From: Verrucomicrobiia bacterium
GTDB taxonomy: Bacteria; Verrucomicrobiota; Verrucomicrobiia; Verrucomicrobiales; DEV007
NCBI GenBank assembly: GCA_030425385.1
Contig: JAUIAH010000038.1
Location: forward strand, 1 to 64,000
Reading direction: 5' to 3'
DNA: 64,000 nucleotides
Shown one piece after another: positions 43,883 to 55,204 of the stretch. Each line of letters begins with the position of its first letter. The first letter of the stretch is position 1. The position numbers and the translations under genes are program-made. The notes below the pieces were generated by a model that saw only the letters and a list, made by a program, of their open reading frames with translations, did no database searches and was not told where the DNA came from.

Positions 43883-46489
43883 GTGCTGGAAGCCAAGTCA
43901 TCAGTTGTCGCCTTCTTGCTATTCGTCACCGCCTTTATACCCTCGACATCCGTGGAGGGACAGACACGCGTGGCGAATACGTCTCTTTCGTTTCCCACTC
44001 AGCTAGGGACGCAGGGCTACGCCTTTGAGAATGCGTTAGGACGTCTCGTCTTCAGGCATCCCGTGGCCATGGCAACGCCGCCTGGAGAGACGAATCGCCT
44101 CTTTGTGGTCGAGAAAGGTGGCACCATTCAGGTGATTCCAAACCTCGCCGATCCTACCATGGAGCCGTTCTTCAGCCTTCGAGTCGCTTCGACTGGAGAA
44201 TCAGGTTTGTTAGGGCTGGCGTTTCATCCTGACTATGCCACCAACGGTTTCTTCTTCGTAAGCTATTCATTCATCGGTGATGGTTCACGGCAACAACGCA
44301 TCGCCCGATTCCAGGTGTCAGCGAATCCCAATCGAGCCGACATGGATTCTGAGTGGCCGCTGATCACTCAGGAGGATCCTGCCAGCAATCACAACGGAGG
44401 TGATCTCCACTTTGGACCCGATGGTTATCTCTACGCCTCTGTCGGTGATGGGGGTGGCGCAGACGATGTCTATGATCATGGACGCTTCGTGGATCGTGGC
44501 TTCTTCAGCGCCATCCTGCGCCTGGATGTGGATCGACGGCCTGGCAGCCTGTTGCCCAATCCCAGCGCATCCGTTCACGCAGGCTCCTACACCATTCCCC
44601 CTGACAATCCCCTCCTAGGAGTCACCTCCTACATGGGCTATCCTGTGGATCCCGATGCGTTGCGAACGGAGATTTGGGCAGCAGGCTTCCGCAATCCCTG
44701 GCGTTTCTCGTTTGATGCGCCTACGGGTCGTTTGCTCTGCGGGGATGTCGGCCAGCGCCAACAAGAAGAGATTAATTTAGTCGAGCCGGGCAGGCACTAC
44801 GGTTGGAGCTTCAAAGAGGGAAACCTCGATTTCACGGATGGCCCAGGTGGCAACGAGGTGCCGGAAAACTTCAACCCAAGCCCTCCTTTATATGCCTACG
44901 GCCGCGTCGAGGGATGGTCGGTTACCGGGGGGCTCGTCTATCGGGGGGATCGCTTGAGTGAACTTGAGGGGCGCTATCTCTTTGCGGACTATGCAAGGAA
45001 TCATCTTTGGGCCCTCACCATTGATGCCAATGATGGCGTGCAATCTGTCGATAAATTGTCAGATGCCGCGCCTGACATTGTTGCCTTTGGGGTCGATCCG
45101 AGAAACGGCGATGTCTTGCTGGCGAGCTATCATTTCGCAGAGGGAGAAATCTTGCGTCTCGTGCGCGGGGAGGTGCAAGACGAATCGCTACCTGCCAAGC
45201 TCTCTGAAAGCGGTGCTTTCTCTGATTTGGAAACGCTCACTCCCGAACCGGGGATCGTGCCGTATGCGATCAATCATCCGCATTGGACGGACGGGGCGGT
45301 GATGCAGCGCTGGTTCTCGATTCCAAACGTTGAGGATGACATGACGTTCCACATCGCTCGCCCATGGGAGTTTCCCACGGGGCAAGTCTGGATCAAGCAC
45401 TTCGAGCTGGATCTCACGCCTGACATTTCGGCGGATCCGCATTGGCGAGTGGAAACGCGCGTTCTCGTGAAGACGGAAGAGGGCGTCTATGGCGTGACCT
45501 ATCGATGGAATGAGGCGCAAACCGACGCTGATCTTGTTCGTGCTGAAGGAGCCACGCAGACCTTTGAGATCGCGACCAGCACGGGAACGATGACCCAAGA
45601 ATGGCGCTATCTGGCCAGGAGCGCATGCCTCAGTTGTCACCAAGCGAGTGCGGGGCATGTGCTAGGGTTCGATACGGCGCAGGTGAATCGATCAGGTGGC
45701 TCGGGTGGTGCCCACCAATTGGAAGAGTGGGATGCCATGGGATACTTTGCCAATGGGATAGCCGATGTCCATCCGCTTCCTCGCCTGGCCGGTCGCGATG
45801 ATGAAGGGGAATCGTTAGAGCATCGCGCCCGCTCATACCTGGCGTCCAATTGCGCCCCCTGTCATCGCCCTGGAGGTTCCGCACCGGGCCTCTTCGATCC
45901 CCGATGGGACCCACTCACTTCGGAGACGGGCATCGTCTCGGGGGCCTTGATGCAGAACTTTGGTGACCCGCAAATGCGCGTGGCTGTGCCGGGGGATCCT
46001 TCCCACTCCATGCTTGTGCAACGCTTGGATGATCTCGATCCCTCCAGACGCATGCCCCCATTGGGATCAATGAAGATCGATGCGGAAGGGGTAGCCCTGC
46101 TGCGGGCGTGGATTCAGGAGGAAATGCCGAGTCACCAGTCCTACGCATCTTGGCGGTTGGAGCATGGGCTAGAGAGTGACGGCGTTGATCAGGATGGTGA
46201 TGGGGCTGGAGATTATTATGAGTTCCTAACAAAGACTAATCCTGTGAATGGAGGCGCCCCTTGGGACGCAGAGACCGTGGTGCGAGGTGAAATGCTAGAA
46301 TTATCCTATGAATCCATCGTTGGCCGGGCGGTGGTGGTCGAGTTGAGCATGGACGCCCGGACGTGGTTTCCCTGGAATCATCCTGCCAATCAACAACGCT
46401 TTCCACGCGTCTCGACTCCCATCCATCTCGAGATCCCCCTGGGAGGGGCCCCGCGCCTCTTTGCCAGAGTCCGTGTCCTCGAGCGCTAG
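43883..46489 (+). CDS. exported PQQ-type sugar dehydrogenase with two c-type heme sites
   Basis: An 868-residue protein with an N-terminal signal-like segment. Residues ~45-435 form a glucose/sorbosone dehydrogenase propeller (GESGLLGLAFHPDYATNGFFF, HNGGDLHFGPDGYLYASVGDGG, GFRNPWRFSFD, GRHYGWSFKEG). Two heme motifs follow, C582-L-S-C-H586 and C657-A-P-C-H661 (SNCAPCHRPGGS). The last ~110 residues are a verrucomicrobial-type C-terminal region (DQDGDGAGDYYEFLTKTNP, resembling a dockerin/thrombospondin-3-like Ca site). The start is GTG at 43883. It is the first of four exported-protein genes in a row, 46 nt before the HtrA-like gene. Confidence 0.88.
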   Translation: MLEAKSSVVAFLLFVTAFIPSTSVEGQTRVANTSLSFPTQLGTQGYAFENALGRLVFRHPVAMATPPGETNRLFVVEKGGTIQVIPNLADPTMEPFFSLRVASTGESGLLGLAFHPDYATNGFFFVSYSFIGDGSRQQRIARFQVSANPNRADMDSEWPLITQEDPASNHNGGDLHFGPDGYLYASVGDGGGADDVYDHGRFVDRGFFSAILRLDVDRRPGSLLPNPSASVHAGSYTIPPDNPLLGVTSYMGYPVDPDALRTEIWAAGFRNPWRFSFDAPTGRLLCGDVGQRQQEEINLVEPGRHYGWSFKEGNLDFTDGPGGNEVPENFNPSPPLYAYGRVEGWSVTGGLVYRGDRLSELEGRYLFADYARNHLWALTIDANDGVQSVDKLSDAAPDIVAFGVDPRNGDVLLASYHFAEGEILRLVRGEVQDESLPAKLSESGAFSDLETLTPEPGIVPYAINHPHWTDGAVMQRWFSIPNVEDDMTFHIARPWEFPTGQVWIKHFELDLTPDISADPHWRVETRVLVKTEEGVYGVTYRWNEAQTDADLVRAEGATQTFEIATSTGTMTQEWRYLARSACLSCHQASAGHVLGFDTAQVNRSGGSGGAHQLEEWDAMGYFANGIADVHPLPRLAGRDDEGESLEHRARSYLASNCAPCHRPGGSAPGLFDPRWDPLTSETGIVSGALMQNFGDPQMRVAVPGDPSHSMLVQRLDDLDPSRRMPPLGSMKIDAEGVALLRAWIQEEMPSHQSYASWRLEHGLESDGVDQDGDGAGDYYEFLTKTNPVNGGAPWDAETVVRGEMLELSYESIVGRAVVVELSMDARTWFPWNHPANQQRFPRVSTPIHLEIPLGGAPRLFARVRVLER

Positions 46490-46535: not shown

Positions 46536-48572
46536 ATGAAGATCTTTGTGACGTTGATCGCTTTGCTGTGGGTGGGCTTTGTGGGAAATTTGAGTGTGCG
46601 TGCGGAGGAGTTGATCACCTCACCATCGCTGCGAGCGCAGATTGATCAGGCGGTGGAAGCCGTTTACCCGGCCCTCGTTCGCATTCACGTGGTTTCTGAG
46701 CAAAGTCGTGATGGGCGGATGCAGAAATCGCAGGGTTCTGGCAGTGGTACGATCATCTCTGAGGATGGCCTCGTCCTGACGAATCACCATGTGGCTGGTC
46801 GTGGCACGCGTATTGTGTGTCGGCTGTCGACGCGCGAGGAAGTGGATGCGGAATTGATCGGAACAGACGTGCTCAGCGATCTCTCCGTCCTCAAGCTTGA
46901 CCTCAGTGATCGCACTGAGGACTCGTCCTTGGCTGTGGCGGCGTTTGGGGATTCCGATAGGGTTTCCGTCGGTGATACCGTTCTCGCCATGGGAAGTCCG
47001 GCGGGACTCTCGCAATCAGTCACCGTGGGTGTGGTTGCGAACACGGCCATGATTCCTCCGCGCAATCAGAGCTTTGATTTGGAGGGCGAAAGTGTGGATC
47101 AGCTGGTCCGTTGGATCGGGCACGATGCGGTGATCTTCCCCGGCAACAGTGGTGGCCCGCTGGTGAATCTTTCCGGTGAGATCATCGGCGTGAACGAGGT
47201 GGGGGTGGGCAGCTTGGGCGGAGCAATTCCTGGCAATTTGGCGAAGGACGTAGCCGAGGAATTGATCGCTCATGGTAAGGTGACCCGGAGTTGGATCGGG
47301 CTTCAGGGGCAACCACTTTTGAAGGACCAACGGCGGCAACTTCGAGGAATGTTAGTCGCCGGCGTGGTGCCCGATTCTCCTGCCATGATTGCCGGGATTG
47401 CGGCCGGGGATATCATCACGAGTTATCGGGGAATATCTGTCAATGTCACCAGCGCGGAGGACGTGCCTGAATTCAATCGCATGGTCTTCAAGAGCCCTCC
47501 TAGCGAAGCCGTGACCCTTACAGGCATGCGCAGGGGCGAGTCGCTGAGCTGGGACGTCACTCCGATCGTGCGTGAACCGAAGCGCGATCGCCCGCGGGAG
47601 TTGAAGTCCTGGGGCATCACCGCGCGCGATTTCACCCGCGTGGCAGCGCTGGAGTATCGGCGGCCTCATCGCAGGGGTGCCCAGATCCACAGCTTGCGAT
47701 CAGGCGGCCCTGCCAATGAAGCGAAACCCAGCCTCGCTGCGGGAGACGTCATTCTGCGCGTCGGTGAGGTCGCGATTGAGAATGTCGCCCATTTGCAAGA
47801 GATCACTACGGCGCGAGTGGCGGGGAAGACAAAGGCAGAGCCAGTGTTAGTCACCTTTGAGCGTGGGCAGCGTCAGTATCTGACGGTGGTGGAGCTGGGC
47901 CCAGAAGAGCCGGATGAGAAACCTAGACTTGCTAAGAAGGCGTGGCTTGGGATCAACACCCAAGTGATCACCCGCGAACTGGCCGAAGCCCTTGGGCTTG
48001 GGCGAAAGAAAGGGGTGCGCGTGACGGAAGTCTTCCCGGACACCACGGCAGCGGAAAGCGGTCTGGAGGTAGGCGATCTCTTGCTCAAGCTCGATGGTAG
48101 TGTCATTCAAGCGAGTCGACGTGAAGACGGTGAAGTATTTGAGAACATGATCCGCCAGTACCCGTCCGATGCGGAGATTGAACTAACAGGATTGCGCAGT
48201 GGAGAGAAATTGGCGGTGACGGTGCCTTTGCAAGAGCGTCCCTTGCCTCCCAGCCAATTCGATTCCTACGAGGATTTGCGGTTCGAGTTCACCGTGAGAG
48301 AGCTTTCCTTTGAAGATCGCGTGTCCAAGGGGTTGGAAAGCGAGGAGAGGGGACTCTATGTGGCGCAGGTGGAACGTGCGGGATGGGGAGCGCTGGCGGG
48401 CTTGCGCAACGGGGATCTCTTGTTGGAAATGGATGGCCAGCCGGTCACCGACTTGAAACAATTCAAGGAAATCATGGCTGCCTTGGCGGAGAATAAGCCA
48501 GAGCGCGTGGTCTTCTTTATCAAACGCGGCATCTACACCGCCTACAAAGAACTCGAACCTGATTGGAACTAA
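46536..48572 (+). CDS. HtrA/DegP-like periplasmic serine protease with about four PDZ domains
   Basis: A 678-residue protein with a signal peptide (MKIFVTLIALLWVGF to ~23). The trypsin-like domain (~35-250) has an intact triad: H85 (in TNHHV), D115 (in DVLSDLSVLKL) and S205 (in GNSGGPL). About four PDZ-like domains follow, at ~271-362, ~375-460, ~475-570 and ~585-670 (for example GVRVTEVFPDTTAAESGLEVGDLLLKLDG). HtrA proteases usually have one or two PDZ domains. It should degrade or refold misfolded exported proteins. The ATG at 46536 fits the signal peptide. Its stop is 9 nt before the pseudo-HtrA fusion gene, a striking pairing. Confidence 0.9.
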   Translation: MKIFVTLIALLWVGFVGNLSVRAEELITSPSLRAQIDQAVEAVYPALVRIHVVSEQSRDGRMQKSQGSGSGTIISEDGLVLTNHHVAGRGTRIVCRLSTREEVDAELIGTDVLSDLSVLKLDLSDRTEDSSLAVAAFGDSDRVSVGDTVLAMGSPAGLSQSVTVGVVANTAMIPPRNQSFDLEGESVDQLVRWIGHDAVIFPGNSGGPLVNLSGEIIGVNEVGVGSLGGAIPGNLAKDVAEELIAHGKVTRSWIGLQGQPLLKDQRRQLRGMLVAGVVPDSPAMIAGIAAGDIITSYRGISVNVTSAEDVPEFNRMVFKSPPSEAVTLTGMRRGESLSWDVTPIVREPKRDRPRELKSWGITARDFTRVAALEYRRPHRRGAQIHSLRSGGPANEAKPSLAAGDVILRVGEVAIENVAHLQEITTARVAGKTKAEPVLVTFERGQRQYLTVVELGPEEPDEKPRLAKKAWLGINTQVITRELAEALGLGRKKGVRVTEVFPDTTAAESGLEVGDLLLKLDGSVIQASRREDGEVFENMIRQYPSDAEIELTGLRSGEKLAVTVPLQERPLPPSQFDSYEDLRFEFTVRELSFEDRVSKGLESEERGLYVAQVERAGWGALAGLRNGDLLLEMDGQPVTDLKQFKEIMAALAENKPERVVFFIKRGIYTAYKELEPDWN

Positions 48573-48581
48573 CATCATCTT

Positions 48582-51500
48582 ATGGAATTCAAGATCCCCA
48601 TAGGCCTCGCAGCCTTCTTCACCTTGGCGTGGGCCTCCTTCGCGGACGACGCGGTCAACGAGGCGGCGCGTGCCCTCCATGCCGAGAAGCAAGACGCCAT
48701 CGTCAGTGTGAAAGCTATCCTGGACGTGGAAATCGTCGTCGACGGCTCCGCAAATCAGTCGCAGGAGCAGAAACTGGAAGCTCCCGGCACGGTGATTGCT
48801 CCCAGCGGACTCACCGTGCTATCCAATGCCAGCATCGACATCGGCTCGCAAATCGAGCAGCAAGTGAAACGCCAAGTGCGTGGTCGCAAGGTTGAAGTGA
48901 AGACTACCTTCAAGGAGGTGAATCTCTTACTCCGCGATGGCACGGAGATTCCCAGTCGCGTCGTACTCAAAGACGAGGATCTCGACCTCGCCTTCGTCTT
49001 GCCAGACGCCGAGGAAGTCGAAGCGGAAGGCGTCGAGTTCGTCACCGTGACCTTTCCGGAAACCACACCCAAGGTGCAATTGTTAGATCCTGTCATCTTG
49101 CTCAATCGCCTGGGCCAGGACCTGGATCGCGAGATGTCTGTCTACGTGACGAAAGTGGAGGCTTTGGTGAAGAAGCCACGCCAGTTTATCGTGACTCACA
49201 ACACGTCGACGGGAACCCCAGCCTTTCTCACCGATGGCACACCGGCAGGACTCTTTGTGCGACGTATCGTGAATGGCACTGTCTCGGGAACAGTGGTTCT
49301 TCCCGCGAAGGAAGTGGCCCGCGTGGCGGCTGAAGTGGCTGAGAATGAGGCTGCCGAGGAGGAAAGTGCGCCCGAGCCTGAAGCGGCGGATGCCGAAGGT
49401 GACGAGGGTGAATCCGCTACTCTAGAGGAAGCTCCCTCAGAGACGGAGGAGAGTGATGGCGATGCCGAGCCACAGGCCCACGTGGTGCCCGAACAGTTGT
49501 TTGAATGTGTGGATCCCAATCTTGAGGTCTCGGTATGGGCCCATTCGCCCCTACTGATGAATCCGACTAACATGGACATCGATCAGCATGGGCGGATCTG
49601 GGTGGCGGAAGGCGTCAATTACCGCAAACACTTTGATCGTCGTCCAGAGGGCGATCGGATCATGGTGCTGGAAGATACGGATAAGGACGGTGGCGCAGAC
49701 AAGTCGTGGGTGTTTGTGCAAGAGCCTTTCCTGCGTGCGCCCATGGGCGTGGCTGTGATCGGGAATCAAGTGGTGGTCTCCATGGCGCCCGATCTCCTTG
49801 TCTACACTGATCACGATGGCGATGCGGTCTACGATCCGACAAAGGGAGACACGCGTGAAGTGTTATTGACAGGGTTCAATGGCCGAAATCACGACCACTC
49901 GCTCCACAGCGTGACCGTGGGCCCGGACGGGAAATGGTATTTCTCGGTAGGGAACTGCGGCGCTTATTTCACGGATCGCGATGCCAAGACCTGGCGGATC
50001 GGGGCGGCGAGCCAATCGATGTCATGGTGGCCTAAAGATCCGGCGATCGCCGATCGGGATCCCGTGACCTTTGGTGGTAAAGCGAGTGACGATGGGCGCG
50101 TCTATGTGGGTGGTTTTATCGCCCGGATGGATCCCGATGGAACCGAAGTGGATATCCTGGCTCATAACCTACGGAATGCTTACGAAAACACAGTGACCTC
50201 CTTCGGAGATGTCTTCGCGGCGGATAACGATGACAATCCAGCCTGTCGGACATTTGCGGTGTTAGAGGGAGCGAACTACGGCTTCGCTTCGCGCGATGGC
50301 TCGCGTTCCTGGCAGGCTGATCGGCGGCCTGGGCAAGATGTGAGGACGGCCACATGGCGACAGGAGGATCCGGGTGTGGCTCCCGCTGGCGATGTCTATG
50401 GAGGAGGGGCGCCTACAGGGATCGTCTATTATGAGAATGGTGCGCTCGGCGAGGCCTGGGAGGGCACCTTGTTGCTCTGCGAGCCTGCCAGAAACACCAT
50501 CTTCGGGTATCGACCGAAACCTCAAGGGGAAGGGTGGCTGTTAGAACGTTTCGATTTCCTCACCACCAATCGCGAGGGTGAGGTGATCGGTACGGACTAC
50601 ACGGGCGGCGACGCCTCGGCGGAAAGCACCGACACCAAGACCTTGTTTCGCCCCTCTGATATCGCTGTGGGGCCAGACGGTGCCCTCTACATCGCTGATT
50701 GGTATGATCCGCGCGTGGGTGGTCACAACGATCTCGATGAGTCCCTCTCCGGCACGATCTATCGCGTGGCTCCCAAGGGATTCAGGAGTGCTCCGCCCAA
50801 GATTGATCTCAAGTCGATTGCTGGCGCGCTTGACGCCCTTTCGAGTCCGGCGGTTCACGTGCGCGCTCTGGGACGGAATGCGCTCAGCACTATGTTAGAA
50901 GAAGACGCGTCGGCTGAGGATGCCTTGATGAAATCGCTTGAGGAAGCGAGTGCCCTCACCATCGCTCGAGCGTCTTGGTTGGTGGGATCGGCCAATCGGG
51001 ATCGCTTGCGCGCGAGGATGGATCCAAGCGTTGCTGAGCGACTTGCGCGTAAAGAAGCGGCGGTGACCACGGATGTGGAGTCGCTCGTTGCCTGGGGAGC
51101 AGCTCTGGATTGGCGCGATCGAACGGCTCTCGAGCGTTGGGGCATGGCAGCAGAGAGTCAGGCCGCAGAAGTCTATGTGGTTCTGTTAGAAAAGCTTGCA
51201 TCGACAGATCCCGTGGGTTGGACCGCGCAATGGGCAACGCTGGCCTGGCGATTGCATCCGGCCGAGAGCGTCCCCGCCTTCAAGACGCGAGCTCTAGCAA
51301 AGACATTGAGTGAACGTGCGCGCCTGCAAGCACTCACCGTGATCGGGATGCACGAAGATCGCCCAGCGGCGGAAGCCATGCTGGCGATCGCTGGAGAAAC
51401 CGATGGCATCGTCCGGGACACCGCCCTTTGGTGGCTCCTGAATAAGCAGGGTGACGGCTGGCAGTCCTCCGAGATGGCTGCCGCTTTGAAAGAACGTGGC

Positions 51501-52010
51501 CTCTATGATCCCGATGGGATCGAGCTACAATCGATCACATTGCCTGATGAGGTTGCGATTGATTATACGTTGGCTGATGTGTTAGATCACAAAGGCGATC
51601 GCGCGCGTGGTGCCACGCAGATCATGCGCTGCGTGATGTGTCATCGGGTAGGGGAGCAGGGCACGGCGCTTGGACCCGATCTCACGGTTTGGGGGAAGAC
51701 CCAGCCCAAGGAGACGATCATTCGTGCGATCCTTGATCCCAATGCCGATCTGGCTCATGGCTTCTACGGCACGGAGATTGAAACGCATGATGGCACGGTG
51801 ATTCAGGGGATGCTCATCAATGATGGCGATCCGATCACCGTGCAAAGCATGGGAGGGATGACACAAATGATTCCCCGGAAACGGGTGAAACGGAAAGCGG
51901 CCATGAGCACCAGCCTCATGATGACGCCAGGGCAGCTTGGGTTGACTGCGCAGGATGTGGCCGACATCGCGGCCTTCCTCAAGGAGCCCTCTACCAGTTT
52001 ATCGAAATGA
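48582..52010 (+). CDS. exported pseudo-HtrA / PVC-type dehydrogenase / cytochrome c fusion
   Basis: An 1142-residue exported protein (signal peptide ~1-21). Residues ~28-245 follow the HtrA fold order but lack the triad: TNHHV is replaced by SNASI (S84 at the His position) and GNSGGP by TSTGTP (T210 at the Ser position). An acidic linker (~247-300) leads to a PVC-type dehydrogenase propeller (~305-745; MNPTNMDIDQHGRIWVAE, FGDVFAADNDDNPACR, DIAVGPDGALYIADWYDPRVGG), a helical repeat region, and a C-terminal heme-binding domain with C1017-V-M-C-H1021 and GPDLTVWGK. It is likely a periplasmic oxidoreductase whose dead protease domain recognises protein or peptide. It overlaps the CotH gene by 4 nt. 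Confidence 0.85.
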   Translation: MEFKIPIGLAAFFTLAWASFADDAVNEAARALHAEKQDAIVSVKAILDVEIVVDGSANQSQEQKLEAPGTVIAPSGLTVLSNASIDIGSQIEQQVKRQVRGRKVEVKTTFKEVNLLLRDGTEIPSRVVLKDEDLDLAFVLPDAEEVEAEGVEFVTVTFPETTPKVQLLDPVILLNRLGQDLDREMSVYVTKVEALVKKPRQFIVTHNTSTGTPAFLTDGTPAGLFVRRIVNGTVSGTVVLPAKEVARVAAEVAENEAAEEESAPEPEAADAEGDEGESATLEEAPSETEESDGDAEPQAHVVPEQLFECVDPNLEVSVWAHSPLLMNPTNMDIDQHGRIWVAEGVNYRKHFDRRPEGDRIMVLEDTDKDGGADKSWVFVQEPFLRAPMGVAVIGNQVVVSMAPDLLVYTDHDGDAVYDPTKGDTREVLLTGFNGRNHDHSLHSVTVGPDGKWYFSVGNCGAYFTDRDAKTWRIGAASQSMSWWPKDPAIADRDPVTFGGKASDDGRVYVGGFIARMDPDGTEVDILAHNLRNAYENTVTSFGDVFAADNDDNPACRTFAVLEGANYGFASRDGSRSWQADRRPGQDVRTATWRQEDPGVAPAGDVYGGGAPTGIVYYENGALGEAWEGTLLLCEPARNTIFGYRPKPQGEGWLLERFDFLTTNREGEVIGTDYTGGDASAESTDTKTLFRPSDIAVGPDGALYIADWYDPRVGGHNDLDESLSGTIYRVAPKGFRSAPPKIDLKSIAGALDALSSPAVHVRALGRNALSTMLEEDASAEDALMKSLEEASALTIARASWLVGSANRDRLRARMDPSVAERLARKEAAVTTDVESLVAWGAALDWRDRTALERWGMAAESQAAEVYVVLLEKLASTDPVGWTAQWATLAWRLHPAESVPAFKTRALAKTLSERARLQALTVIGMHEDRPAAEAMLAIAGETDGIVRDTALWWLLNKQGDGWQSSEMAAALKERGLYDPDGIELQSITLPDEVAIDYTLADVLDHKGDRARGATQIMRCVMCHRVGEQGTALGPDLTVWGKTQPKETIIRAILDPNADLAHGFYGTEIETHDGTVIQGMLINDGDPITVQSMGGMTQMIPRKRVKRKAAMSTSLMMTPGQLGLTAQDVADIAAFLKEPSTSLSK

Positions 52011-55000
52011 AAGCACACGCTACCCTGACATTACTCCTCATAGCCTCCCTCGCCTCAGTTCATAGCTCGGACGAACCTGGTCCCACGGCTACCGATGGCC
52101 CTCTTATCATCCATGAACTCGATGCGGTGGGTGGACTGGAGGTGATGGATGACGATGGCGATGAAGAGGATTGGTTTGAGATTTGGAATCGATCGGACGC
52201 CAGTGTGTCTCTCGCTGGGTGGTCCGTGACGGAGGGAGAGGATGTAGTGGATGCTTGGCCGTTTCCTGAAATGGAGATTGCCGCTGGAGGGTATCTCTTG
52301 GTGTATGCGTCAGGAAAGGATCGGCGAGATCTCGCGGCGCCCCTGCACACGGATTTCAAGTTGGGCGCGGAAGGCGAGCCCCTCCGGTTGATCCGGCCTG
52401 ATGGTTCTGTTAGTCACGGGTTTGATCCAGCCTATCCCGCCCAACGGGAAGGCTATAGCTACGGACTCACCGGCGAGGGTACCTATCGGTATTTCAGTCG
52501 AGCCACTCCCGGGGAGGCCAATGATGCGCGTGGCGAGTGTTTCATTGATGATTTGGTCATCAGTGTTGCCCATGGATTCTATGAGGATGCCTTTGAAGTG
52601 GAGATCACCTGTCCCACGCCTGAGGTGACGATTCGTTTCACAGTGGATGGAAATGAACCTTCCGCGGGGACCTTGTTTGGAGGAGCGAAAGGCGAGGTTT
52701 ATGAGGGGCCAATCACGATTGATGGTACCACCGTCCTCCGTGCGCAGGCCACGCGATCTGGTTGGAATGCGAGTCATGTGGCCACGCAGACCTACATCTT
52801 TCTTGAGGATGTGGTAGGGCAATCTCCCAATGGCGAGACGCCGGAAGGGTGGCCTGATGGATCTGTCAATGGGCAGGTCTTTGACTTTGGCCTGGATCCC
52901 GAAGTGGTGAATGATCCCGCCTATGCGGATCAGTTGATTCCCGCCCTGCGAGCCATTCCCACCATGTCGCTTGTCATGGACCAAGAAGATCTCACCGATC
53001 GCGGTGACGGCATCTATGTGAATGCGAATCAAGATGGGCGCGATTGGGAGCGTCCAGGTTCGTTAGAGCTTCTCAATCCCGATGGATCTGAAGGTTTCCA
53101 GATCAATGCGGGCGTTCGCATCCGTGGCGGATTCAGCCGTACAGGGGCCAATCCCAAACATTCCTTCCGCATGTTCTTTCGAGATGAGTATGGCGAGAAT
53201 GCCCTGCGCTATCCTCTCTTTGGCGACGAGGGCGTGGACGAGTTCAAGAAGTTCGATTTCCGCACCGCTCAAAACTATGCCTGGAGCCTCCAGTCGTCCA
53301 ATGATGCGAGTCGTAATACCTTCCTACGTGAGGTCTTTGCTAGGGATTCGCAACGGGCCCTTGGGAAACCGTACACGCGCAGCCGCTACTATCATTTATA
53401 CCTGAACGGTCAGTACTGGGGACTCTACATGAGTCAGGAGCGTGCGGAAGCCGACTATGCCGAGAGCTACTTTGAGGGTGAACAGGAGAATTACGATGTC
53501 ATTAAGGTGGAAGCGGGCCCCTATACGGTCTACGCCACCGCCGGTTCCATCGATGCCTTCTACGAACTGCATGAACTGGTCAGTGGTGATCTCACAGATG
53601 CCGATTTCTACGCGTTGCAGGGCAAGAATCCTCAAGGAGAGGATGATCCAAGCCTTCCGAAACACATCGATGTGGAGAATTTGATCGATTACATGCTCAT
53701 CATCTTCTACGTGGGGAGCTTCGACGCCCCTCTGGCCGGAACGGATCGGGCGAACAACTTCTACGCGATCCGGGATCGTGAAGAGCGCGATGGTTGGCGT
53801 TTCTTTGCCCATGACACGGAGCATTCGATGTTGCGCCCAGCCGAGAATCGCATGGGGCCTTATCCCGCAGGGCGTTCGCGCCAACACTTCAATCCTCAAT
53901 ACCTGCATCAACAGCTCATGCAGAGTGATGCCTATCGCTTGCTCTTTGCGGACCATGTGAGGCGAGAGTTCTTTCATGATGGCGTCTTCACGACGGAATC
54001 CGCGCTGAAGCGTTGGCGTGCGCGCCAGGCGCAGATTGATCTCGCTATCATCGCGGAGTCCGCGCGATGGGGTGATCAGCATGAGCGGGTGCCCTACACG
54101 AAGGAAGATTGGCTCACCGAGTTGGAGTGGGTCGAGGACGTCTTCTTCGACGGGCGAACGGAGACCGTCTACGCTCAGATGGAAGATGTGGGCCTGACAG
54201 GGGATTTGCAAACGCCCGAATTTCGACCTGATGGGGGTGTCATTGATGATCCTAGCACCTTCACGTTCTCCCTTCAGGTAGGGACCCTCTTCAAGCCACA
54301 GCCGGGCGATATCTATTACACGCTTGATGGCAGTGATCCCAGAATGCCCGATGGTTCGGTTTCTGATAGGGCCATGCTCTACGAGCGCAGCCAGAAAGTA
54401 CCCTTAGACGGATCAGCCATCGTCAAGACGCGCCTGCTGAACGAGGGTAGCTGGAGCCCGCTGAATGCGGTGACCTATACCCACGGAGCCCTGGCGACCG
54501 CGGAGAATCTGGTGATTTCAGAGATCATGTACCATCCAGCTGCCGTGGGAGAGGGCAGTATCGCAGGGTCAGAATCAGCCTTCGAATATTTGGAGTTGTG
54601 GAATCCCTCGGACATGGCGGTTGATCTCACAGGGGCGACCTTTGCCAACGGTCTCAATTTCGCCTTTCCAGCCACGGGTCTCGATGCAGGTCAGCGTGGT
54701 GTGCTTGTCAGTGATGCGAATGCTTTCGCAGAGCGCTACGGCACCAACTTCCTCATTCTCGGCGAGTTTGGGGGTGACATGGGATCACAACTCAGCAACT
54801 CGGGCGAACGTCTCGCCATTCATAACATCCATGGAGAGGTGGTCGTCGACTTTCGCTACAGCGACGACGGTGACTGGCCCACGCTCGCCGATGGCGACGG
54901 TGCTAGTCTCCAATTGATCGGTGAGGATCCTGCAGATCCCAGCGCCTGGGTAGCACGGACGGATCCCTTAGGCGTGGCCGGATTGGTTGATCCCCAGCCT

Positions 55001-55204
55001 TCAGACGCAGCCATTCTTGTTGTTGAGAAAGCGTCAGACGGCACCGTGCGCTTACAGCTTCCGCAAGGAGTGACCACAATTGAATACTCCACGGATTTGT
55101 CCCAATGGCAGGTGATCACGACCGACGCAGAGTCGATATTCACAGAAGTGGATGCCGAACGTTTGCTGAGATCGACGGGCTACTACCGGGCGATCCTGCC
55201 CTGA
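52007..55204 (+). CDS. exported CotH-type protein kinase-like protein with lamin-tail and chitobiase-type domains
   Basis: A 1065-residue protein with a signal peptide (about 1-20). Order: lamin-tail domain (~32-170, IHELDAVGG, EDWFEIWNRSDASVSLAGWSVT); a chitobiase C-terminal-like domain (~180-270, VTIRFTVDGNEPSAG); a CotH kinase-like domain (~320-640, GVRIRGGFSRTGANPKHSFRMFF, RNTFLREVFARDSQ, LNGQYWGLYMSQER, FFAHDTEHSM); a second chitobiase-like segment (~765-830, YYTLDGSDPRMPDGS); and a second lamin-tail domain (~835-980). CotH proteins are atypical kinases that phosphorylate secreted proteins. It overlaps the fusion gene by 4 nt and ends the operon, 12 nt from the convergent aguB. Confidence 0.9.
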   Translation: MKAHATLTLLLIASLASVHSSDEPGPTATDGPLIIHELDAVGGLEVMDDDGDEEDWFEIWNRSDASVSLAGWSVTEGEDVVDAWPFPEMEIAAGGYLLVYASGKDRRDLAAPLHTDFKLGAEGEPLRLIRPDGSVSHGFDPAYPAQREGYSYGLTGEGTYRYFSRATPGEANDARGECFIDDLVISVAHGFYEDAFEVEITCPTPEVTIRFTVDGNEPSAGTLFGGAKGEVYEGPITIDGTTVLRAQATRSGWNASHVATQTYIFLEDVVGQSPNGETPEGWPDGSVNGQVFDFGLDPEVVNDPAYADQLIPALRAIPTMSLVMDQEDLTDRGDGIYVNANQDGRDWERPGSLELLNPDGSEGFQINAGVRIRGGFSRTGANPKHSFRMFFRDEYGENALRYPLFGDEGVDEFKKFDFRTAQNYAWSLQSSNDASRNTFLREVFARDSQRALGKPYTRSRYYHLYLNGQYWGLYMSQERAEADYAESYFEGEQENYDVIKVEAGPYTVYATAGSIDAFYELHELVSGDLTDADFYALQGKNPQGEDDPSLPKHIDVENLIDYMLIIFYVGSFDAPLAGTDRANNFYAIRDREERDGWRFFAHDTEHSMLRPAENRMGPYPAGRSRQHFNPQYLHQQLMQSDAYRLLFADHVRREFFHDGVFTTESALKRWRARQAQIDLAIIAESARWGDQHERVPYTKEDWLTELEWVEDVFFDGRTETVYAQMEDVGLTGDLQTPEFRPDGGVIDDPSTFTFSLQVGTLFKPQPGDIYYTLDGSDPRMPDGSVSDRAMLYERSQKVPLDGSAIVKTRLLNEGSWSPLNAVTYTHGALATAENLVISEIMYHPAAVGEGSIAGSESAFEYLELWNPSDMAVDLTGATFANGLNFAFPATGLDAGQRGVLVSDANAFAERYGTNFLILGEFGGDMGSQLSNSGERLAIHNIHGEVVVDFRYSDDGDWPTLADGDGASLQLIGEDPADPSAWVARTDPLGVAGLVDPQPSDAAILVVEKASDGTVRLQLPQGVTTIEYSTDLSQWQVITTDAESIFTEVDAERLLRSTGYYRAILP

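Follow-up and report, generated by a model that had tools for sequence, protein, structure and literature searches.

In the window, the whole 64,000-nt stretch of DNA that was analysed, an uncultured verrucomicrobial bacterium encodes a single protein in which a signal peptide, a pseudo-HtrA domain, an acidic linker, a TIGR02604 domain and a TIGR02603 heme domain follow one another in this order. The features of this fusion ORF and of the genes around it are listed here in order of position.

43883..46489, + strand: gene for a glucose/sorbosone-dehydrogenase-type (GSDH) propeller with a C-terminal cytochrome domain (ORF list, Pfam)
46536..48572, + strand: active HtrA gene with TNHHV, Asp and GNSGGP and four PDZ stretches (ORF list, Pfam, NCBIfam)
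48582..52010, + strand: fusion ORF, ATG start, 1142 aa, uninterrupted, with no stop or frame break
48582..48644, + strand: predicted signal peptide MEFKIPIGLAAFFTLAWASFA, recognised by eye from its charged start, hydrophobic core and AWASFA cleavage-like site
48642..49367, + strand: pseudo-HtrA domain, residues about 21-262, predicted HtrA protease fold without PDZ (model, profile comparison)
48831..48833, + strand: Ser84, at the catalytic His position (family alignments)
48984..48986, + strand: Asp135, at the catalytic Asp position (family alignments)
49107..49109, + strand: Arg176 (family alignment)
49209..49211, + strand: Thr210, at the catalytic Ser position (family alignments)
49317..49487, + strand: acidic linker, about residues 246-302, matching the acidic tail at the C-terminus of the congeners' stand-alone pseudo-HtrA
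49521..50780, + strand: TIGR02604 / PF23500 dehydrogenase-type (propeller) domain, residues 314-733 (Pfam, NCBIfam)
50781..51593, + strand: middle region, residues 734-1004, no Pfam or NCBIfam match
51594..51986, + strand: TIGR02603 heme domain, residues 1005-1135 (NCBIfam), with CVMCH at 51630-51644
52007..55204, + strand: CotH / lamin-tail surface protein, its start overlapping the fusion stop by 4 nt

The fusion ORF is separated by 9 nt from the active HtrA gene, whose listed ORF begins at a TTG (46461) and whose ATG ahead of the signal peptide is at 46536. Since the GSDH-type gene, the HtrA gene, the fusion ORF and the CotH gene are co-directional with short gaps, they are likely co-transcribed. 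The GSDH-type gene (43883-46489), two genes upstream of the fusion ORF, is itself a second propeller-plus-cytochrome fusion. A frameshift artefact was considered for the fusion ORF and rejected. No defence link was found with PADLOC.

The C-terminal 830 residues of the fusion make up a standard TIGR02604 plus TIGR02603 protein, which in Pfam is DUF7133 plus cytochrome c. TIGR02604 matches residues 314-733 (NCBIfam; E 5.9e-127, 424 bits against a cut-off of 122.2) and TIGR02603 matches residues 1005-1135 (NCBIfam; E 1.8e-38, 131.5 bits against a cut-off of 68.15), where the CxxCH motif is present as CVMCH at residues 1017-1021 and supplies two of the only six cysteines in the fusion protein. 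With both matches above their cut-offs, the arrangement described in the first-pass annotation, an acidic linker leading to a propeller-type domain and a terminal CVMCH heme domain, is confirmed. There is also weak profile similarity to the PQQ-dependent soluble glucose dehydrogenase type (TIGR03606, E 0.0014). A model of the dehydrogenase half, built from a seven-sequence alignment, reached a pLDDT of 40.9, which is too low for a structure search. TIGR02604 proteins are named dehydrogenases by similarity. This name is insecure, because the verrucomicrobial protein Lac161_ORF7, which consists of TIGR02604, HEAT and TIGR02603 parts, has been purified and is reported to be a beta-galactosidase that hydrolysed lactose (PMC5342196). 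By analogy with Lac161_ORF7, and with helices appearing in the low-confidence model, the middle region (residues 734-1004) is probably helical and HEAT-like. Cytochrome-domain proteins of Verrucomicrobia have been tied to carbohydrate use by context (PMC5615132), and periplasmic sugar oxidation or hydrolysis is the likely setting of the enzyme half.

Sequence searches of the PDB with the pseudo-HtrA domain gave no significant match, and Pfam Trypsin_2 stayed below threshold on residues 69-219 (E 0.015 for the N-terminal piece, 16.5 bits against a cut-off of 27.6); the HtrA assignment therefore leans on profile alignment and on the predicted fold. We modelled the domain with AlphaFold2 from an alignment of the domain and 36 homologues from public genomes, and the resulting model (pLDDT 94.8, pTM 0.90) has one helix at each end, around barrel strands. 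Its top Foldseek matches are DegP, DegS, DegQ and HtrA1, with E-values down to 3e-11 (DegP), and VIA-align superposes it on the protease domain of E. coli DegQ (3sti_B) with Z 20.9 and rmsd 2.7 over 176 residues. Nearly all VIA-align rows are HtrA/Deg proteins, and the S1C domain of RsgI9 is found there too. A fold unrelated to trypsin-like proteases, which would have refuted the first-pass annotation, was not seen; the structure prediction matched DegP and was trypsin-like. When the dead family was compared with the adjacent HtrAs by hhalign, the correct blocks were aligned with a P-value of 0.0005 and a probability of just 31%, which is supportive, not decisive. No PDZ match was found in the fusion or in the scanned stand-alone homologues. 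On the modelled structure, the N-domain of the fusion has an HtrA-type chymotrypsin fold.

Where HtrA proteases contain the blocks GxxISxxGxVxTNHHV ... DLAVL ... GNSGGP, the window domain contains GTVIAPSGLTVLSNASID ... DLDLAFV ... TSTGTPAF. The family alignments agree with the earlier reading that the HtrA block order is kept with Ser84 and Thr210 at the His and Ser positions, and they did not restore the triad elsewhere, so that His and Ser stay absent. Among 102 aligned family copies, none has His at the His position, four have Ser at the Ser position (others have Gln, Leu, Pro, Thr, Ala and so on) and none has both. Asp135 is kept in the window and Asp is found at this position in 88 of the 102 copies; every copy has Arg or Lys at position 176, and Gly223 is invariant. 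With Ser84, Asp135 and Thr210, the window domain does not have the His-Asp-Ser triad of S1C proteases. Judged from these alignments, the dead-HtrA family is catalytically inactive, and was so already before its members diverged; the triad loss is, on the same grounds, ancient and family-wide and did not come with the fusion. A chance origin of the dead HtrA-like pattern is ruled out because it is conserved family-wide. The dN/dS ratio is 0.07-0.09 for the dead domain and 0.075 for the active HtrA, with dS near saturation in the window comparisons and a sounder value from the pair of congeners G001 and G002 (dS 0.89, ratio 0.078), showing that the dead domain is under constraint as is the active HtrA.

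The remaining three genomes in the genus (G001, G002 and G003) encode the N-domain as a separate secreted protein of about 290 aa, 65-75% identical to that of the window, directly behind an orthologue of the window HtrA (74-78% identical). In G001 and G002, the dehydrogenase is also a separate protein, 804 aa long with its own signal peptide, which is encoded on another contig and is 80% identical over residues 299-768. At the junction, the mature start of the congener dehydrogenase, AEPVPPNLF, aligns with DAEPQAHVVPEQLF in the window, and the acidic linker of the fusion stops at the point equal to this mature start. The acidic tail of the G003 stand-alone pseudo-HtrA, EPEPDEEDDDDDDEDGEDSDEDGE, is similar to the window linker. 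No second pseudo-HtrA was found in the window genome, and its next dehydrogenase is just 41% identical to the fused half. When the ancestral site of the dehydrogenase was sought, the neighbours of the G001 dehydrogenase turned up on other contigs of the window genome, and an empty site was not seen. Contigs C14 and C69 of G000 carry an identical Trypsin_2 match at the same coordinates (653-1060), which marks them as redundant contig ends in the assembly.

We searched more than 800 genomes in overlapping sets (386 of the order, 384 of the class and 288 of the phylum) and found that, among the strong matches listed, the window copy is the only one that is fused (open frame >600 aa). The fusion, seen in one assembly, is probably recent and so far a singleton, not a family. 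Therefore, the first-pass interpretation holds in that an inactive HtrA fold is fused to a PVC-type dehydrogenase and heme domain, but not in taking the fused architecture as a family: the family is the dead domain alone, which usually has a gene of its own behind an active HtrA.

This dead domain belongs to a widespread Verrucomicrobiota family that is apparently undescribed. Pfam and NCBIfam contain no curated model specific to it (a single copy, from Opitutia, scores barely at the Trypsin_2 cut-off), and annotation pipelines therefore probably miss the domain; no paper on the family was found in the library searched. Family loci occur in the window's order, in Opitutia, in other families of the class and in one MAG labelled Phycisphaerae. 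The distribution is patchy, with no strong family match in g19, a small-genome genus of the same order. In a census of 100 family ORFs, whose loci were gathered by similarity and are not a random sample, 61 lie behind HtrA, 25 behind rpsD, 12 elsewhere and two at contig ends. Each of the 61 has a same-strand HtrA upstream, nearly always as its direct neighbour; a few are the second copy of a tandem. The gaps between HtrA and pseudo-HtrA are often -4 to +50 nt. All 61 paired HtrAs have GNSGGP, and 58 have the TNxHV histidine motif. Chance adjacency to HtrA would be well under 1%, because the window genome has about 18 Trypsin_2 stretches above the cut-off in 8 Mb. A FastTree phylogeny places the window copy inside the HtrA-linked lineage, as sister to that of G003, and gathers the rpsD-linked copies into a single clade that also takes in a few from other settings.

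The family loci vary in composition. Tandem dead-HtrA copies, two or three, are present in several genomes; at L036 6239-8464, L041 7-1569, L093 7734-9399 and L172 5943-7575, two or three tandem dead domains lie behind a single active HtrA, some of them within a single ORF. In Opitutia loci, including L126 7721-8977 and L128 7774-9111, the HtrA/pseudo-HtrA pair is followed by a third gene of about 420-450 aa, whose product, with its weak MORN-like repeats, is probably a lipoprotein. The pair in the MAG labelled Phycisphaerae (L146 4916-7729) groups with the Opitutia copies, which means transfer or mis-binning. A dead-HtrA protein of 522 aa with a long proline-rich tail is encoded at L038 5321-6889 without an adjacent HtrA. 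Behind many rpsD-linked copies, as at L139 7808-9331 and L149 7666-9153, stands a gene of about 500 aa; in the two cases tested, it encodes an M32 carboxypeptidase. In the ribosomal alpha/spc operon region, at L137 6953-11785, L138, L142, L143, L147 and L159, an SGNH hydrolase and then a TIGR02604 protein come after the rpsD-linked dead HtrA; the TIGR02604 protein of L137 has an azurin-like domain at its end in place of the cytochrome. Because the window genome alone has roughly 26 TIGR02604 proteins above the cut-off and the synteny is shared by descent, we count this TIGR02604 link at the rpsD locus as one further event that is suggestive only.

We consider it probable on balance that the N-domain is a non-catalytic partner of the neighbouring HtrA and that in this lineage it tethers a periplasmic redox enzyme to HtrA. 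The N-domain would be orthologous to the stand-alone secreted pseudo-HtrA, which would act with the HtrA encoded immediately upstream as a subunit of a hetero-oligomer or as an adaptor or regulator, and which may contact HtrA and influence its activity, oligomer or substrates. The pseudo-HtrA gene would have been joined in frame to the dehydrogenase and heme-domain gene that congeners encode elsewhere, with loss of the dehydrogenase signal peptide and conversion of the acidic tail of the pseudo-HtrA into the linker. The product would then be exported via the pseudo-HtrA signal peptide, and the redox enzyme would be tethered to the periplasmic HtrA assembly. The data show the dead fold, its constraint, the gene pairing and the junction anatomy, which speak for this model together with the tree and the precedent of MamO, while partnership and tethering are inferred. 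It is plausible that the domain anchors the oxidoreductase to a partner protein, as the first-pass annotation suggested, and the candidate partner is the active four-PDZ HtrA 9 nt upstream. The HtrA partnership is not universal across the family, because a large rpsD-linked clade and the 12 other ORFs have no adjacent HtrA. A further point against the partner model is that the fusion lacks the TauE domain on which MamO depends. More speculatively, Verrucomicrobiota HtrA assemblies might use the dedicated dead subunit of the htrA-pseudo-htrA pair as a docking platform for clients or enzymes, and the fusion would carry a heme-linked oxidoreductase into the HtrA complex.

The pseudo-HtrA could instead be a free-standing binding or scaffold module for a peptide, a metal or an envelope ligand, in which case its adjacency to HtrA would reflect shared regulation or tandem-duplication ancestry and the fusion would simply add a binding domain to the enzyme. 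This would account for the persistence of the rpsD-linked clade and other copies away from HtrA, and it fits the residue at position 176, which is invariantly Arg or Lys yet non-catalytic, as well as the metal bound by the protease domain of MamO (PMC4794232). The several rpsD loci with an SGNH hydrolase and a TIGR02604-azurin protein next to the dead HtrA would provide a second link to the enzyme class. However, the HtrA pairing recurs in several lineages and in many families across the class, for which simple inertia is a poor explanation, and we regard a module independent of HtrA as possible but doubtful. It is far less likely that the domain retains protease activity through a changed set of catalytic residues. 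Thr210 could in principle serve as a nucleophile next to the retained Asp135, but the Ser position is variable in relatives, the His position is never His where a chymotrypsin-type mechanism requires it, and MamO, with Thr at the same position, is inactive (PMC4794232), which leaves this possibility very slight.

The fusion itself might be an assembly artefact that joins two separate loci, given that it appears in one of the four genus genomes, that the neighbours of the G001 dehydrogenase are found on other contigs of the window genome, and that two contigs with identical Trypsin_2 coordinates indicate some redundancy in the assembly. A random join, however, would rarely fall in frame at the mature start, with the signal peptide gone and the acidic tail kept as a linker; moreover, the frame is unbroken and CotH overlaps the end of the fusion by 4 nt. 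We consider such an artefact improbable.

If the N-domain is a non-catalytic partner of HtrA, as we favour, then the htrA-pseudo-htrA pairs bear on the control that a dead paralogue exerts over a quality-control protease of the periplasm. Few inactive HtrA relatives have a known role, MamO being the clear bacterial case found in this analysis, and a conserved dead HtrA acting with an active HtrA across Verrucomicrobiota would give a second and much broader system. The fusion serves as a lead in that it names an enzyme class that the dead subunit may recruit. Dead HtrA relatives as such are already known, and what is new is the fusion architecture in the window.

In the known system, MamO is a dead HtrA that promotes MamE proteolysis, for which its presence, not its triad, is required; activation of MamE depends on the TauE domain of MamO, and a MamO-MamE contact was not detected in that study (PMC4794232). 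The window protein resembles MamO in its predicted HtrA fold, the lost triad, the Thr at the Ser position and the presence of an active HtrA in the same gene region. MamO has a TauE transporter domain at its C-terminus and a di-His metal site, whereas the window protein gives no TauE match in Pfam and carries the dehydrogenase and heme domain. With DegP, DegQ and DegS (MEROPS S1C), the window domain shares the predicted fold (Z about 20), while it lacks the triad His and Ser as well as PDZ, and roughly 20-25 residues are inserted between its former His and Asp positions. The C-terminal part of the fusion has the same propeller/CxxCH order as the Lac161_ORF7 type, where an HtrA-like N-domain is not reported. 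The S1C domain of RsgI9 (PDB 7sjy), which is a structural match, is likewise an S1C fold used as a module of a multidomain bacterial protein, although its context is that of an anti-sigma factor.
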